64,000 nt of DNA from Verrucomicrobium spinosum DSM 4136 = JCM 18804 (GTDB lineage Bacteria > Verrucomicrobiota > Verrucomicrobiia > Verrucomicrobiales > Verrucomicrobiaceae): assembly GCF_000172155.1 (NCBI RefSeq), contig NZ_ABIZ01000001.1, forward strand, positions 4,683,105 to 4,747,104, read 5' to 3'. The notes under the pieces are model-generated. The model was not told where the DNA came from, searched no databases, and worked only from the letters and a program-made list of their open reading frames with translations. The position numbers were made by a program, and so were the translations under genes. This document shows positions 5,910 through 12,102 of this stretch, one piece after another (position 1 is the first letter of the stretch; each line of letters begins with the position of its first letter).

Positions 5910-6059
5910 TTGAGAGACTGGGCGATCCTCAAACCCCATCCGCTGACCAACCACGCTGCTGCCTTATCCAGCATCCGCAGGCTCAGCAAGCACCGCCGAA
6001 CCGCGCCAGCAGCCAACACCTTGACCACTGACGCACCGCCTACTGCCCACTGATTTCCC

Positions 6060-8198
6060 CTACTCTTCCAACAGCAGCGGCGGCTGGAACCAAATCTCCA
6101 CCTCGCAGGTAGTACGCGCCGGATTGTCCAGCAGCAGCACCGTGTCCCAGATCAAGGGCGGCACCGGCACCACACTGGCAGGAGCGTCTTCCGCCCCCGT
6201 AGCCTTCCCACCCCAGTGGGCGGTCCGCTCATCCAGCTTGAATTCCACAAACCTCCAGCCTGTCCAGCTCACATTAGGGCCATCCGGCTGCCAGGTGCGT
6301 CCAGCGGCATCCTGAAGGCGGAGACGCAGGGCGGTCTTGCTCTTGTCCCCGTGCACCCACATGCCGAACCGGGTGACGCGATCAACCGGCCCCGCCTCAG
6401 CCATCCCTGACACGCGGTGGCGAGTGCCCTCGGCCCCGATGACTTGGGCGAACTTCCAGCCCGCACCGAACGCGCACTTGAGCCGCCAGGCGTCAGCGCT
6501 GCCCACTGGCGGGGCCACGGGAGCCGTCCCGCGGCTGAGTTCAGCCTTGCCCGACACCTTGTCGTCTCCCGTCACAAAGGTGCGCAACCCTTTCTCAAGC
6601 TCCGCAGGCTGGGCGACAAAATGACGTGCGGGGACGGTGAGCACGGTCTGACCATTCACCTCCAGCTCAGCCCCAAGGCGGTAGCTGGGTGAGGCAGATG
6701 CCTTTAGCGGAAACAAGACGGTGGTTGCCGCCTGATCTGGGGCCAAATTCAGCGATTGCGTGGCCTCCTGCACCTCCAGACCTTCCGTGCCGATGAGCTT
6801 CACCTTCCCCACCACTGGGTGCTCACCATAGGTGGTGACCTGCACCGCCGCCCTGTCCCCGGCACAGGGCAGCACGGTCAGCTTCATGGGCACCGCCTCC
6901 ATCGCCTGGCGGAGCAGCGGATCTGTTTCCTGAAACTTCACGTAAATCGGGGCATCGGTGAGTTCCAGTTGGAGCTCGCCTCCACTTAGGGGTGGCAATA
7001 CCTGCCCGAGATGCCCCACCCTGCTGATGGCTCCTGGCGATACCAGCACCTTCACGCTGGCTGGCACACCTCCCGCCGTCCAGGCCACGAGGCACTGCGC
7101 CCCGGCCCGCTCGAACAAGTAGCCGTGATGATCCAGATTCCCCAAGTTGATCCGCTTCACAAAGTGGAAGCCTTCCAGCTCTCGATTGAAGGTTTGCGCG
7201 GCGAGATACGCTGGCTTGGCGTTGTAGGCCGCCGCCCGCCCCGGGAAATGCTGGCGCTCCACTGTGCCAAAACGATGCTCCGCCTCCTTGGGATCCGGGC
7301 CATCGTCCTTCCAGTCATACCAGATCGATACCGGCACCGCGCTCGCGGCATTCACCACCCACTGGCGGGTGAGCATCTTCCCCTGCAAGCTCGCATCGAA
7401 GTTCGCCCAAGCCTCCGAGTAGCCCCACTCACCCGCGAGCACAGCCACCTTCTTCCCCGCCGGTGCGTGCTTGCCAATCAACTGGCGCAGCGCGTGATAC
7501 TCGGCCGCAACTGATTCCGGGCCGCCCTGGCGATAAGGATGCACCGACACCGCCTGCCACCATTCCAGCAACCCGCCTTTGAAACAACCTTCCAGGAACT
7601 CGAGGTCGATCGTCGAACTCGCCGGCCCCACCACGCACTCGTCCGGAGCCGCCTCCTTGATGGCCTGACACGCCACCCGCGCCATCTTGACGTAGGCTTC
7701 CACATCCGGCTTGGGCTTCCAGAAGCCTTCGATGTTCGGCTCGTTCCAGATTTCCCAAATCACCCCTTTGCCCCGAAAGTGCTGCACCGCAGCCACGGCC
7801 CAACGCGCGTAGGCCGCCCTGCCTTCATCAGAGGTGATGGAGCGGAGCGGCTCGTAGTTCTTGTTGGAATAGTTTAAGATGAAGACCGCCCCCAACCCCT
7901 GCGCCTCCAGCGACTTCATGAGGTGATCATAGGCTGCAAAGTCGTACGCCCCCTCCTTGGGCTCCGTGGCCTCCCAAGTGAGATCCATCCGGATCCACTT
8001 GAATCCTGCTGCGCGAATCATCTCCAATTCCCCCTGCTGCGGATGGGTGAAGTGAATGTTCACCCCACTGGCATCCGTCACGATTCCCGAAGCCGGGATC
8101 TGGGCCATCAGCCCGTGGCCCAGTGCAAGACTGGCGGCGAGGATAGCGAATGAGACAAAGGAAGCAGAGAGAAAGCGGCGCGAACCTACGAACGACAT
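6060..8198 (-). CDS. Secreted clan-A glycoside hydrolase (GH39/GH5-like)
   Basis: 712 residues with a signal peptide (hydrophobic 12-33). Residues about 40-380 form a TIM barrel of the GH-A clan. The acid/base is the Glu of WNEP (Asn152-Glu153), and LAGEWGYSE supplies a probable nucleophile at Glu257 at the end of strand 7. Barrel strands such as FKWIRMDLTWEATEP and SVHPYRQGG fit GH39/GH5-like enzymes acting on beta-linked glycans. The C-terminal 330 residues look like beta-sandwich domains, the last reminiscent of a carbohydrate-binding fold (WRLKCAFGAGWKFAQ, GWRFVEFKLD). The exact GH family and substrate cannot be told by eye. It is a single gene with no obvious operon partner. Confidence 0.82.
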   Translation of the reverse strand: MSFVGSRRFLSASFVSFAILAASLALGHGLMAQIPASGIVTDASGVNIHFTHPQQGELEMIRAAGFKWIRMDLTWEATEPKEGAYDFAAYDHLMKSLEAQGLGAVFILNYSNKNYEPLRSITSDEGRAAYARWAVAAVQHFRGKGVIWEIWNEPNIEGFWKPKPDVEAYVKMARVACQAIKEAAPDECVVGPASSTIDLEFLEGCFKGGLLEWWQAVSVHPYRQGGPESVAAEYHALRQLIGKHAPAGKKVAVLAGEWGYSEAWANFDASLQGKMLTRQWVVNAASAVPVSIWYDWKDDGPDPKEAEHRFGTVERQHFPGRAAAYNAKPAYLAAQTFNRELEGFHFVKRINLGNLDHHGYLFERAGAQCLVAWTAGGVPASVKVLVSPGAISRVGHLGQVLPPLSGGELQLELTDAPIYVKFQETDPLLRQAMEAVPMKLTVLPCAGDRAAVQVTTYGEHPVVGKVKLIGTEGLEVQEATQSLNLAPDQAATTVLFPLKASASPSYRLGAELEVNGQTVLTVPARHFVAQPAELEKGLRTFVTGDDKVSGKAELSRGTAPVAPPVGSADAWRLKCAFGAGWKFAQVIGAEGTRHRVSGMAEAGPVDRVTRFGMWVHGDKSKTALRLRLQDAAGRTWQPDGPNVSWTGWRFVEFKLDERTAHWGGKATGAEDAPASVVPVPPLIWDTVLLLDNPARTTCEVEIWFQPPLLLEE

Positions 8199-8281
8199 GG
8201 CGCATGGTGGTACGCATGAGCCCTGTCCGCAAGCGAGGTTGGACGACGACCAAGCCCATTTCTACGCGCATCTTGAGCCAA

Positions 8282-9490
8282 GAAACCGGCCGAGGACGAC
8301 CGAGCCACCACTCCGGTCCGCAGTCAGGGTTGGAGCACCGCGTTTACGCGGCTCAGAACGCACTGCCCTGGACGTCTCATGCAAGCAACACACTGCTTCG
8401 CCTACAACGTCCGCCAGCTTCGCTCACCAGCGGGACCGGAGATCCCGCCTCCTTTAGGTGCCCCAACTCCGCACACCTTGGGTAAAGGAGGCGGGGGTTC
8501 CAGCCCCGCACGAACGTCTCCTGATACGCCAAGCACCTCAAGCGTCAAACCACCTCGAGACGTCCACCCCTCCGCTCCCAAACCGGCCGAGGACGGCCGA
8601 GCCACCACTCCGGTCCGCCGACAGGGTTGGAGTACCGCGTTTACGCGGCTCAGGACGCGCCCCCCCTGACGTCTCATGCAAGCAACACACTGCTTCGCCT
8701 ACAACGTCCGCCAGCTTCGCTCACCAGCGGGACCGGAGATCCCGCCTCCTTTAACAGCCCCAACTCCGCTCGCCCTGGGTAAAGGAGGCGGGGGTTCCAG
8801 CCCCGCACGAACGTCTCCTGATACGCCAAGCACCTCAAGCGTCAAACCACCTCGAGACGTCCACCCCTCCGCTCCCAAACCGGCCGAGGACGGCCGAGCC
8901 ACCACTCCGGTCCGCCGACAGGGTTGGAGTACCGCGTTTACGCGGCTCAGGACGCGCCCCCCCTGACGTCTCATGCAAGCAACACACTGCTTCGCCTACA
9001 ACGTCCGCCAGCTTCGCTCACCAGCGGGACCGGAGATCCCGCCTCCTTTAGGTGCCCCAACTCCGCACACCCTGGGTAAAGGAGGCGGGGGTTCCAGCCC
9101 CGCACGAACGTCTCCTGATACGCAAGCATATCGAACGACCAACCACCTCGAGACGTCCACCCCTCCGCTCCCAAACCGGCCGAGGACGGCCGAGCCACCA
9201 CTCCGGTCCGCAGTCAGGGTTGGAGTACCGCGTTTACGCGGCTCAGGACGCGGCACCCCCTGACGTCTCATGCAAGCAACACACTGCTTCGCCTACAACG
9301 CCCGCCAACTTCCCTCACCAGCGGGACCGGAGATCCCGCCTCCTTTAACAGCCCCAACTCCGCACACCCGGGGTAAAGGAGGCGGGGGTTCCAGCCCCGC
9401 ACGAACGTCTCCTGATACGCCAAGCATATCGAACGACCAACCACCTCGAGACGTCCACCCCTCCGCTCCCAAACCGGCTGAGGACGACCG
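8282..9490. repeat. 297-bp tandem array, four copies, built of REP palindromes
   Basis: Four near-identical units begin at 8282, 8579, 8876 and 9173, with a partial fifth at 9470; the spacing is 297 bp each time. Each unit holds three palindromes. The first is CGGCCG-AGGA-CGGCCG with a GTGG head on the minus strand (its first stem is less perfect in copy 1). The second is ACCGCG-TTTA-CGCGG. The third is a pair of GGAG-headed palindromes facing each other, GCGGGA(N7)TCCCGC and GCGGGG(N6)GCCCCGC. It fills the gap between the glycoside hydrolase and the PBP-like gene. Because 297 is a multiple of three, open frames run through it on both strands, but they merely mirror the repeat and no gene is supported. 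Confidence 0.9.
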
Positions 9491-9527
9491 AGGACGGCCG
9501 GACGACTCCTCACATTGCAGCCGAAAA

Positions 9528-9697: not shown

Positions 9698-11263
9698 ATG
9701 CTTCCAGTAAACACATTTGCAACGCTACTCCTGTTGGCGACCGCAACGTTCAGCATCGACAATCTTCACGCCAACTCCCCTTCCCCACTCCCAGCTCGCG
9801 GCGACATTCGCGATCGTAACGGCATCGTACTCGCCACCGACAAACCAGACCCGAAGGACTCCTCGACCACGCCGCCTCCACGTCGCTACCCTTTCCAATC
9901 ACTCGCCAGTCATGTCCTTGGCGCAGTGACTCAACCTCAGCCCTGGCAACCACCCTTCGGCATCGACGGCGTTGAGAAGATGCTGAATGACGACCTCGCA
10001 TCCACCCCAGCTCAAACGGACCACTCTAACTCCGGCAAGTCTGGCCAGGATGTCTGGCTCACGATTGATGCCCGGCATCAGTTCATCGTCGAGAACGCTC
10101 TTCGCGATGCCAACGTTGGTCGCGGCACTGCGGTGCTGATGGATGTGACCTCCGGCCAGATCTTTGCCATGGCTTCTTTGCCGTCATTCGATCCCAACCT
10201 TTTTGTCCCGCAGATCTCCGAAGCAACGTTTGAGGCCTATCGCAGGAATCCTTCGATTCCCATGCTCAATCGTGCAACCACCCCCTTCACTCCTGGCGCA
10301 TCGTTCATGTTGGTCACCGCTCTCGCGGCGGCGACCAGCGGTCACGCCATCGACGTGCACGCTTGCGACGGTGTGTTTCAGGCCGGCTCGAAGTCATTAC
10401 CCTGTTGGATTCGCAGCAAAGGCGGCACACATGGCCAACAGACGCTGGACAAAGCCATGGAGAACAGCTGCGGGCTCTACTTCTATGGCCTCACCCTCTC
10501 CATGGGATATGACAAGATAGAAAGGTTGGCAGATCTCGCAGGCTTGAGGAGCAAGCCCGGCACAGGGCTTCCTGGCGAGGCCGCAGGATTCATCCCAGGG
10601 CCAAGTTGGCTGAAAACGCAAACCTCTGATCTCAACGCCGGCTCCCATTCACCATGGACGGACGCCAGTTCCGCCACCAATTCTGTGGGCAGCGGGAGGA
10701 TTGCGATCACCCCCCTGCACATGACCACCATCGCGGCCACGATCGCCAATGGCGGCACGGTCTGGAAACCTGAGTTGGTTCGCCATGTCGGCGAACAAGA
10801 AACCAAACTCTACCGAAAAACAAACTCCATCCAGATCAGCAACCTGAAGGACCACGGACTCAGCGCAGAAGGATTGAGCATCATTCGGGAAGGCATGCGC
10901 AAGCGCACTGCCAAAGTGACACCGTCTCAAGCTCAGTTGGTGCCCACTATCAATGGCTTCTCTGGCACCATGGTCGAGTATCGAAAGCATCCCGTGCTAC
11001 GGGAATATGTTCGTGAGAGAAACTGCTGGTACGTCTGCTACGCTCCTGCCGATAAACCGCAGTGGGCTCTGACGGTGCTGGTGCAACACGGCCGATCCGG
11101 CGGAGACACCTCCGCACCCATTGCCCACCGCATCCTCCAGGATGTGTCTGCAGTTGAGGCAGGTGCGCTCAAAGTTGAGCCAAAGCCATTGCCGCCCACG
11201 CCAGGTCATTGGGAGTTGGTGGACGCCGTGGGGTTTCCCGGCACGAAGGTCGAGGAAAAGTAG
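9698..11263 (+). CDS. PBP2-like transpeptidase-fold protein, catalytic motifs lost
   Basis: 521 residues with an N-terminal signal-like segment (1-25). It keeps the class B PBP signature ARGDIRDRNGIVLATD and the transpeptidase fold: VLMDVTSGQIFAMASLPSFD, PGTGLPGEAAG and ITPLHMTTIAATIANGG all match PBP2 proteins. All three active-site motifs are changed. The SxxK position reads A201-S-F-M204, where PGSTFK is usual, so the Ser nucleophile and Lys are both gone. SxN reads S257-C-G259. KTG reads F421-S-G423. The frame is otherwise intact over 521 codons, which suggests a maintained pseudoenzyme, perhaps a scaffold or decoy, rather than decay. It cannot be acylated by the usual chemistry. It is followed by a truncated BlaI-type gene and flanked by REP repeats. 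Confidence 0.85.
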   Translation: MLPVNTFATLLLLATATFSIDNLHANSPSPLPARGDIRDRNGIVLATDKPDPKDSSTTPPPRRYPFQSLASHVLGAVTQPQPWQPPFGIDGVEKMLNDDLASTPAQTDHSNSGKSGQDVWLTIDARHQFIVENALRDANVGRGTAVLMDVTSGQIFAMASLPSFDPNLFVPQISEATFEAYRRNPSIPMLNRATTPFTPGASFMLVTALAAATSGHAIDVHACDGVFQAGSKSLPCWIRSKGGTHGQQTLDKAMENSCGLYFYGLTLSMGYDKIERLADLAGLRSKPGTGLPGEAAGFIPGPSWLKTQTSDLNAGSHSPWTDASSATNSVGSGRIAITPLHMTTIAATIANGGTVWKPELVRHVGEQETKLYRKTNSIQISNLKDHGLSAEGLSIIREGMRKRTAKVTPSQAQLVPTINGFSGTMVEYRKHPVLREYVRERNCWYVCYAPADKPQWALTVLVQHGRSGGDTSAPIAHRILQDVSAVEAGALKVEPKPLPPTPGHWELVDAVGFPGTKVEEK

Positions 11264-11350: not shown

Positions 11351-11481
11351 ACGGTCCACCACCCTGCTCATCTACCCAGGGCGAAGCCCGCCTAAACCAG
11401 CGCAGCGTCTCAACAGCCCGCTTGCGGGCCCCTCAACCAGCGCAGCGCCTAAACCACTCCACGCCCCGCCAATCTACTAAC

Positions 11482-11877
11482 ATTTTAGTCCGTGAGATCC
11501 TCGACACCATCAATGAGGACCGCGTTCCGCCGCTGGTGTACACGACGGTACTAACGTTTCTCCAGATTATGACAGACAAGGGTCTGGTCCTGCGGGACAC
11601 CCAGGGCAAGACGCATGTCTATCGTGCGGCGGTCGCGGCAGAGAAAACCCAACGCCATCTCGTGAAGGATGTGCTGGAGCGCGTGTTCTCCGGCTCCGTC
11701 AACCAGTTGGTCATGCACGCCTTGGGTTCGAGGAAGATTAGCGCGGATGAAGTGCGCGAGATCAAGGCCATGCTCAACGAGAGCGATCACACTCCCCCCA
11801 TCGCAAAGCCACTGCCGCCAGCGCAGGGTCACTTCAATCCGGTGGAACCTGCGGGGAGCACCGGGCCCCAAGATTGA
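11482..11877 (+). pseudogene. BlaI/MecI-family regulator lacking its N terminus
   Basis: About 131 codons match the BlaI/MecI/CopY family from the second helix of the winged helix onward. VREILDTINEDRVPPLVYTTVLTFLQIMTDKGLVLRD is the recognition helix and wing, and VFSGSVNQLVMHALGSRKISADEVREIKAML is the family's dimerisation tail. The first helix (about 25 residues, usually with an E-W-x-V-M-x-x-L-W pattern) and the start codon are missing. Upstream the frame continues only through Ser/Pro/Gln-rich repeat sequence. The next in-frame ATG lies inside the wing. BlaI normally represses beta-lactamase or PBP genes until a sensor cleaves it, so its place after a PBP-like gene fits, but this copy looks inactive. 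A non-standard fused start cannot be excluded. Confidence 0.7.
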
Positions 11878-11964
11878 GTAGCGACGGGGGCGAAGGGCGA
11901 ACAAAGCCCGCGCCCCCAAATCGGCCAAGGAAAGCCGGACGACTCCTCACATTGCAGCTAAAAA

Positions 11965-12035
11965 GTAGTGGTGGGCTTTAGCCTGCCTTTACGTCACATG
12001 AACGCACGACTGAACAGGCTGAAGCCTGTGACTAC
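11965..12035. repeat. GTAG-headed REP pair (BIME), right copy
   Basis: GTAG (11965-11968) plus GGGCT-TT-AGCC, then the inverted partner ACAGGCT-GA-AGCCTGT ending in CTAC (12032-12035). Together with its 5' flank it is a direct repeat of the element at 9528-9598, about 2.4 kb away. The rest of the 225-bp gap between the blaI fragment and the CehA-type gene holds only C/A-rich micro-repeats next to the latter's stop. Confidence 0.8.
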
Positions 12036-12102
12036 TTTCCCGCCTCCACCATTACTAGCTTCACGCTCCCAGCTGAAAACTGCAAACTTGAACCCTGAAA
12101 AC

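Follow-up and report, generated by a model that had tools for sequence, protein, structure and literature searches.

The window analysed here, a stretch of 64,000 nucleotides from Verrucomicrobium spinosum DSM 4136 = JCM 18804 (contig NZ_ABIZ01000001.1, positions 4,683,105 to 4,747,104 of the forward strand), contains an open reading frame (ORF) for a domain of penicillin-binding protein 2 (PBP2) type from which the catalytic residues have been lost. Gene order at this locus is collinear with that in genomes G001 and G003 (genomes and loci are given by the handles of this study; G000 is the window genome), where a glycosidase-like gene is followed by blaI, a receptor gene fusing an M56 peptidase to a PBP2-type domain (M56-PBP2), a CehA-like gene, a patatin gene and an AMP-ligase gene. 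In the window, blaI is truncated, the M56-PBP2 receptor has been reduced to a scar (Table 1) and the PBP2-type ORF lies in up to ~1.67 kb of DNA inserted relative to G001, as read from the match ends. Of the receptor, the scar preserves 20 C-terminal codons (G003 residues 943-962 of 965, 95% amino acid identity), followed by three diverged codons and a stop. Given its nucleotide identity to G003 blaI (Table 1) and a ratio of nonsynonymous to synonymous substitution rates (dN/dS) of 0.05 to the same gene, the blaI relic has diverged little and the deletion of the receptor looks recent.

Table 1. Features of the sensor locus, in coordinates of the window.
Feature	Position	Strand	Basis or remark
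297-bp tandem array, 4.1 copies, 95% match, intergenic, upstream of the ORF	8283..9492		Tandem-repeat match
Dispersed repeat, left of the two copies flanking the segment	9525..9600		Sequence match
PBP2-type sensor ORF without M56, 521 aa, catalytic residues lost	9698..11263	+	ATG start, open frame
N-terminal hydrophobic segment, residues 1-27	9698..9778	+	Aligns with last transmembrane helix and linker of M56-PBP2 receptors
Pedestal stub, residues 34-51, RGDIRDRNGIVLATDKPD	9797..9850	+	Pfam stub and alignment
SxxK position, reads ASFM (residues 201-204)	10298..10309	+	Ser to Ala, Lys to Met
SxN position, reads SCG (residues 257-259)	10466..10474	+	Ser retained, Asn to Gly
KTG position, reads FSG (residues 421-423)	10958..10966	+	Lys to Phe, Thr to Ser
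Half of presumed BlaI operator, CTACTAACATTTTAGT	11474..11489	+	Sole match to CTACKAANNNNTTMGT in the window genome
blaI relic without codons 1-41	11488..11800	+	92% nucleotide identity to G003 blaI over 313 bases
Scar of deleted orthologous M56-PBP2 receptor	11806..11877	+	Joined in frame to blaI
Dispersed repeat, right copy	11962..12037		87% identity to left copy

An initial annotation of this DNA described an open frame with all three catalytic motifs replaced on a preserved transpeptidase fold, and both points are confirmed. The motifs were read from an alignment with 12 MrdA proteins, all of which have them intact, and PF00905 (Transpeptidase) matches residues 143-481 over the whole profile (1-299 of 299, E 7e-43, Pfam). 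The window protein retains 65 of the 90 columns that are invariant among the 12 MrdA proteins, with a modest excess of loss at the catalytic letters (5/7, against 20/83 of the other invariant columns; one-sided Fisher p 0.016). It resembles MrdA (PBP2) in its full PF00905 match, in its best NCBIfam match (pbp2_mrdA, 272.8 bits) and in its PDB matches, which are headed by MrdA 7kis. It differs from MrdA in falling below the NCBIfam cut-off of 455 and in having lost the catalytic residues and the pedestal. The name PBP2 given in the initial annotation is imprecise, as the genome has a separate and intact MrdA (L003, at G000:C1:4376352, with STYK, SCN and KTG) among eight transpeptidase-domain matches across its 8.22 Mb.

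Three features had been overlooked in that annotation, namely the near absence of the pedestal, a start that corresponds to the last transmembrane helix of a receptor, and the truncated blaI downstream. The PBP_dimer domain is represented by a 20-residue stub (residues 32-51, Pfam) with the rest of the domain unmatched, and by alignment ~100-110 pedestal residues of the G001 and G003 receptors are missing after it. No PF05569 (M56) match was found in the ORF, and tblastn found no M56 trace near it, including upstream. The hydrophobic residues 1-27 would, by inference, act as a signal anchor or signal peptide and allow export. A Shine-Dalgarno sequence is visible for 2 of the 15 window ORFs checked.

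The closest relatives of the window protein are receptor fusions. Across 57 genomes (the window's own included) the five best matches besides the window protein itself are in open frames of 933-984 codons, and the architecture Peptidase_M56 - PBP_dimer - Transpeptidase was found by Pfam in 5/5 of the closest relatives scanned; a first contig scan with the window protein as query had found no relative. When a five-fusion model was run on 386 genomes of the order, matches running from M56 to the end were confined, among the matches listed, to the same five genomes; two candidates per genome were scored in that scan, and fusions with a shorter pedestal, having lower scores, would be hard to pick out there. 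A search of 68 genomes of the family with a second, pedestal-poor type yielded 12 fusions of that type, seven of them new. This gives 19 fusions with both domains in total, including those of G018 (same family) and G038 (same order), with 18/19 in the 68 family genomes; M56 was identified by Pfam in 10 and by a model built in this analysis in the others. The count excludes partial contig-end matches and separate pieces (G212, G009, G016 and others), PBPs whose ORF carries no M56 (L052, L098), M56 proteins with weak or partial transpeptidase matches (L106, L120) and G011, which has a deleted M56 core. The receptor has a neighbouring BlaI-family gene in 13/13 loci examined, namely that of G011 and those of the 12 fusions other than the seven new compact ones.

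A tree of 32 rows places the window protein inside the clade of full-length fusions (support 99/97) as sister to G001/G003 (100/97), and without the two longest branches these supports are 96/97 and 98/94. Grouping the five fusions without the window protein is rejected (approximately unbiased test, p-AU 0.029), with the caveat that this group was chosen post hoc, from the tree itself. Nested in this way, the window protein most likely descends from an M56 fusion and would be what is left of a receptor after later loss of the protease and most of the pedestal. A plain PBP2 paralogue was ruled out by the same placement and by the M56 fusions being the nearest kin. The ORF is also not the G001/G003 receptor ortholog merely missing its N-terminus, since the scar of that ortholog lies 0.5 kb downstream and synonymous divergence (dS) does not match: dS of the ORF to the fusions is ~1.7-1.9, against 0.27-0.59 for four neighbouring genes and, for the blaI relic, 0.35 to G003 and 0.78 to G001. 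With dS so far above that of its surroundings, the ORF is therefore an older, divergent sensor, and no ortholog of it was found in G001 or G003.

Catalytic loss is common to much of this receptor group, which answers the question raised in the initial annotation of whether the altered motifs are shared by homologues: they are shared and recurrent among the M56-transpeptidase fusions. The HExxH of the protease is retained in 19/19 fusions, while the Lys of SxxK is absent in 16/19 and the Ser in 11/19. In a tree with 11 Lys-less rows, loss of the Lys requires at least two changes. The derived states Lys to Met, Asn to Gly and Thr to Ser are common to the window protein, G001 and G003, and are therefore older than the split between them; only the window protein has Ala in place of Ser and the Phe of FSG. 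Readings of the third motif as KNA or LAD in L194, L200 and L201 are unsure, having come from an automatic alignment.

The dead transpeptidase domains of the relatives are under purifying selection, with dN/dS (Nei-Gojobori) between 0.11 and 0.29. Values for the transpeptidase and M56 parts are 0.19 and 0.21 in G001/G003, 0.11 and 0.175 in G014/G004, and 0.22-0.29 and 0.19-0.21 in four pairs of the second clade, some of which are blurred by recombination. The low ratios are not those of decay, for which the initial annotation had named a dN/dS near 1; this comparison was made on the relatives only. For the window lineage, neutrality over the whole branch is rejected (codon model, omega = 1, 2dlnL ~37-40, p ~1e-9 or below), and a recent loss of function is compatible with the data. 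Of the 90 MrdA-invariant residues, G001 and G003 keep 62 each, G008 73, G004 74 and G014 80.

Within the second clade, identity at four-fold sites is discordant between M56 and the transpeptidase core in 10/66 pairs after Bonferroni correction (core closer in 2, more distant in 8), the pairs being non-independent and drawn from genomes of many contigs. Sites identical in M56 and in the core are, respectively, 97/166 and 176/181 for G104/G158, 115/168 and 16/57 for G035/G104, and 117/185 and 27/86 for G118/G101. Sliding windows over G104/G158 have sharp edges near residues 475 and 775, and this pattern could be an assembly chimera. The DNA of that pair (L200/L201) is 96-99% identical in the core and ~50-89% identical, by window, in the remainder of the gene. 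As discordance at synonymous sites is not easily explained by selection on the protein, it points to recombination of the core, and dead cores appear to have been exchanged among receptors.

Sensor-only derivatives are found at three places: the window ORF, L204 and G011. L204 (G212, a genome of 740 contigs with 8% contamination) has 796 aa, begins just before the last helix, reads SSIK, SCS and KTG, and has no M56 trace within 1.5 kb upstream. G011 (L050) differs from G018 (L049), to which it is otherwise close, by a clean in-frame deletion of the M56 core with the sensor motifs intact. Both L204 and G011 retain the Ser and Lys of SxxK.

The window ORF is probably the sensor half of a BlaR1-type receptor, with a PBP2 domain that was already catalytically stripped before it parted from its M56 protease, and in the relatives non-covalent sensing of the cell wall would drive an M56-BlaI relay. 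By established PBP chemistry, acylation is an unlikely signal in receptors that lack the Ser or the Lys of SxxK, which argues for non-covalent binding of a wall ligand. In the relatives, the dead transpeptidase pocket would bind such a ligand, which may be a stem peptide, lipid II or a partner PBP, with no acylation involved. The resulting change would reach M56 by way of the last transmembrane helix, and M56, by analogy with the known BlaR1/BlaI pair, would cleave BlaI. Release of BlaI from a tandem ACKAA-N4-TTMGT operator would then derepress the blaI-receptor operon. Two such dyads, 8-9 bases apart, lie upstream of blaI in G001, G003, G004, G014 and G008; their position and symmetry suggest that they are the BlaI operator and that the system is self-regulating. 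There are 17 matches to CTACKAANNNNTTMGT in six genomes, 13 at blaI loci (some being one dyad on both strands) and 4 elsewhere, and the reversed control also gives 17, therefore no regulon beyond the blaI-receptor operon is claimed.

In the window genome this proposed chain is broken, as there is no M56 domain, a start-less blaI and half an operator, and the orphan sensor would at most bind a ligand in the periplasm or be on its way out. The initial annotation had suggested selection for a non-catalytic role, with a sensor that binds without acylation as one option. That option fits the relatives, and the shared, recurrent motif loss and low dN/dS support a selected role for them; the present function of the window copy is uncertain because the neighbouring orthologous receptor has been deleted, and the odds that the orphan still functions are roughly even.

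Several observations weigh against this interpretation. All three motifs are present in 2/19 fusions, those of G038 (KTG) and G018 (KSG), and a third, G209, retains SxxK and KTG and reads SCS, hence some members of the group may sense by acylation. The dead domain is not more tightly constrained than M56 in the second clade. The window lineage is represented by one sequence, with a tip length of 1.12 against ~0.75 for its sister; the longer tip, and fewer invariant residues than G008, G004 and G014 (not G001 and G003), fit some relaxation. Its omega ran to the branch-length bound with synonymous sites saturated, so that the estimate is unreliable and the analysis relies solely on omega = 1 being rejected, and a terminal neutral stretch of up to ~0.2 substitutions per codon is compatible with the branch. 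Two AlphaFold models were of low confidence (mean predicted local distance difference test scores 44.7 and 31.9) and were not used.

The alternative that survives best, at somewhat under an even chance, is a decaying pseudogene that lost its protease and the start of its blaI, is free of selection and has kept an open frame because decay is recent. The locus is indeed eroding: the ortholog is deleted, the blaI start and half of the operator are gone and the pedestal is lost. Furthermore, G+C content at third codon positions in the ORF (0.663) is below that of 14/17 other window ORFs scored, two of the motif changes are private to this copy, and the codon analysis allows the short neutral tail described above. 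Against this, in 1000 neutral simulations a frame of 521 codons stayed open in 6% at 0.2 substitutions per codon, 1% at 0.3 and 0.1% at 0.5, and omega = 1 is rejected over the branch. The protein also keeps slightly more invariant residues than the sensors of G001 and G003, for which dN/dS is 0.19, and the Lys, Asn and Thr had been lost before orphaning.

Less likely, although a possibility, is that the ORF has been retained as a stand-alone periplasmic protein, acting as a decoy, as a ligand binder with dominant-negative effect or in trans with one of the five other M56 proteins of the genome. Sensor-only derivatives recur, L204 being less dead and G011 having its motifs intact, and there are five M56-blaI pairs elsewhere in the window genome. 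However, two of these five M56 proteins were scanned beyond M56 and match not a PBP domain but Secretin, below cut-off (L058, G000:C1:5011984), and ExbD (L054, G000:C1:7859710); the ORF has no ortholog in G001 or G003, and L204 comes from the contaminated and fragmented G212. A second blaI-family gene of this genome that lacks an adjacent M56 match is L065 (G000:C1:7746617).

It is improbable that the ORF is a silent sensor cassette, in other words a divergent core maintained next to the receptor locus to serve as a recombination donor. In its favour, cores look exchanged in the second clade, the ORF is adjacent to blaI in the same orientation with repeats on both sides, and four-fold sites equal to those of G003 number 43/137 in the ORF, 41/54 in the blaI relic, 300/368 in the upstream gene and 285/433 in the downstream gene. 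However, no exchange was seen between the ORF and any receptor, and the discordance comes from another clade with many-contig genomes, including the possibly chimeric pair G104/G158.

Pseudo-transpeptidases could bind partners and the ORF is homologous to PBP2, yet a scaffold or regulator of the elongation complex beside MrdA, the first option of the initial annotation, is very improbable, since class B PBPs contact SEDS glycosyltransferases through the pedestal, which is nearly absent here, and the relatives are receptors that carry a BlaR1-type protease in the same protein and have blaI as a partner.

A broader proposal can be made only tentatively, at rather less than an even chance: that the Verrucomicrobiales have polymorphic wall receptors, in which PBP domains were captured several times by BlaR1-type M56 proteases, repeatedly stripped of catalytic residues and then retained as non-covalent sensors, with recombination swapping the cores among receptors in the manner of a recognition domain. 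Sensor-only genes would be a product of this process and may be decoys or cassettes. Among the compact fusions of the second type, L046 (G013, 5996-9298) carries a C-terminal FGE-sulfatase-like domain, and the other long ones scanned have several hundred additional C-terminal residues with no Pfam match.

BlaR1 is the textbook receptor that reports an antibiotic through covalent acylation. According to the available text of PMC7593790, acylation of the sensor Ser activates the M56 domain and BlaI is degraded, and that of PMC3305447 describes a wall dipeptide that can act directly on BlaI in Bacillus licheniformis. The relatives are like BlaR1/MecR1 with BlaI/MecI in having an M56 domain (PF05569) with HExxH, a C-terminal PF00905 sensor and an adjacent Penicillinase_R repressor. 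They differ in the sensor, which in the known receptors is class D beta-lactamase-like with three motifs and an acylated Ser (PMC7593790, in the same text) and in the relatives is a PBP-type domain that mostly lacks the catalytic Lys or Ser and that, in one clade, has its whole pedestal. The window ORF, without M56 and beside a truncated blaI only, is therefore a derivative rather than a member of the BlaR1-type receptors.

A survey of OXA-domain BlaR homologues (Microbiol Spectr 2022, PMC9045261) reports proteins with M56 and a penicillin-recognising domain in many bacteria, and in its available text mentions no PBP2-type or motif-less sensors. No description of M56-PBP2 fusions, or of dead motifs in them, was found among the matches listed from the open-access literature, an absence that is not proof. 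The component families are known, and among the same matches no prior description was found for M56 joined to a pedestal-bearing PBP sensor, for recurrent catalytic loss with a conserved protease, or for core exchange. If the proposed mechanism is true, conserved BlaR1-type receptors with non-acylatable PBP sensors would show that this protease-repressor relay is also able to respond to a non-covalent cue, probably the condition of the wall. Naturally dead PBP folds would allow ligand binding to be studied apart from catalysis, and what such relays sense in free-living bacteria would become directly testable.

The locus also carries repeats. The dispersed repeat that brackets the sensor ORF and the receptor scar is palindromic-looking, and the genome contains 12 matches to it, partial ones included. 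Shorter copies related to the 297-bp array are present at the corresponding place in G001.
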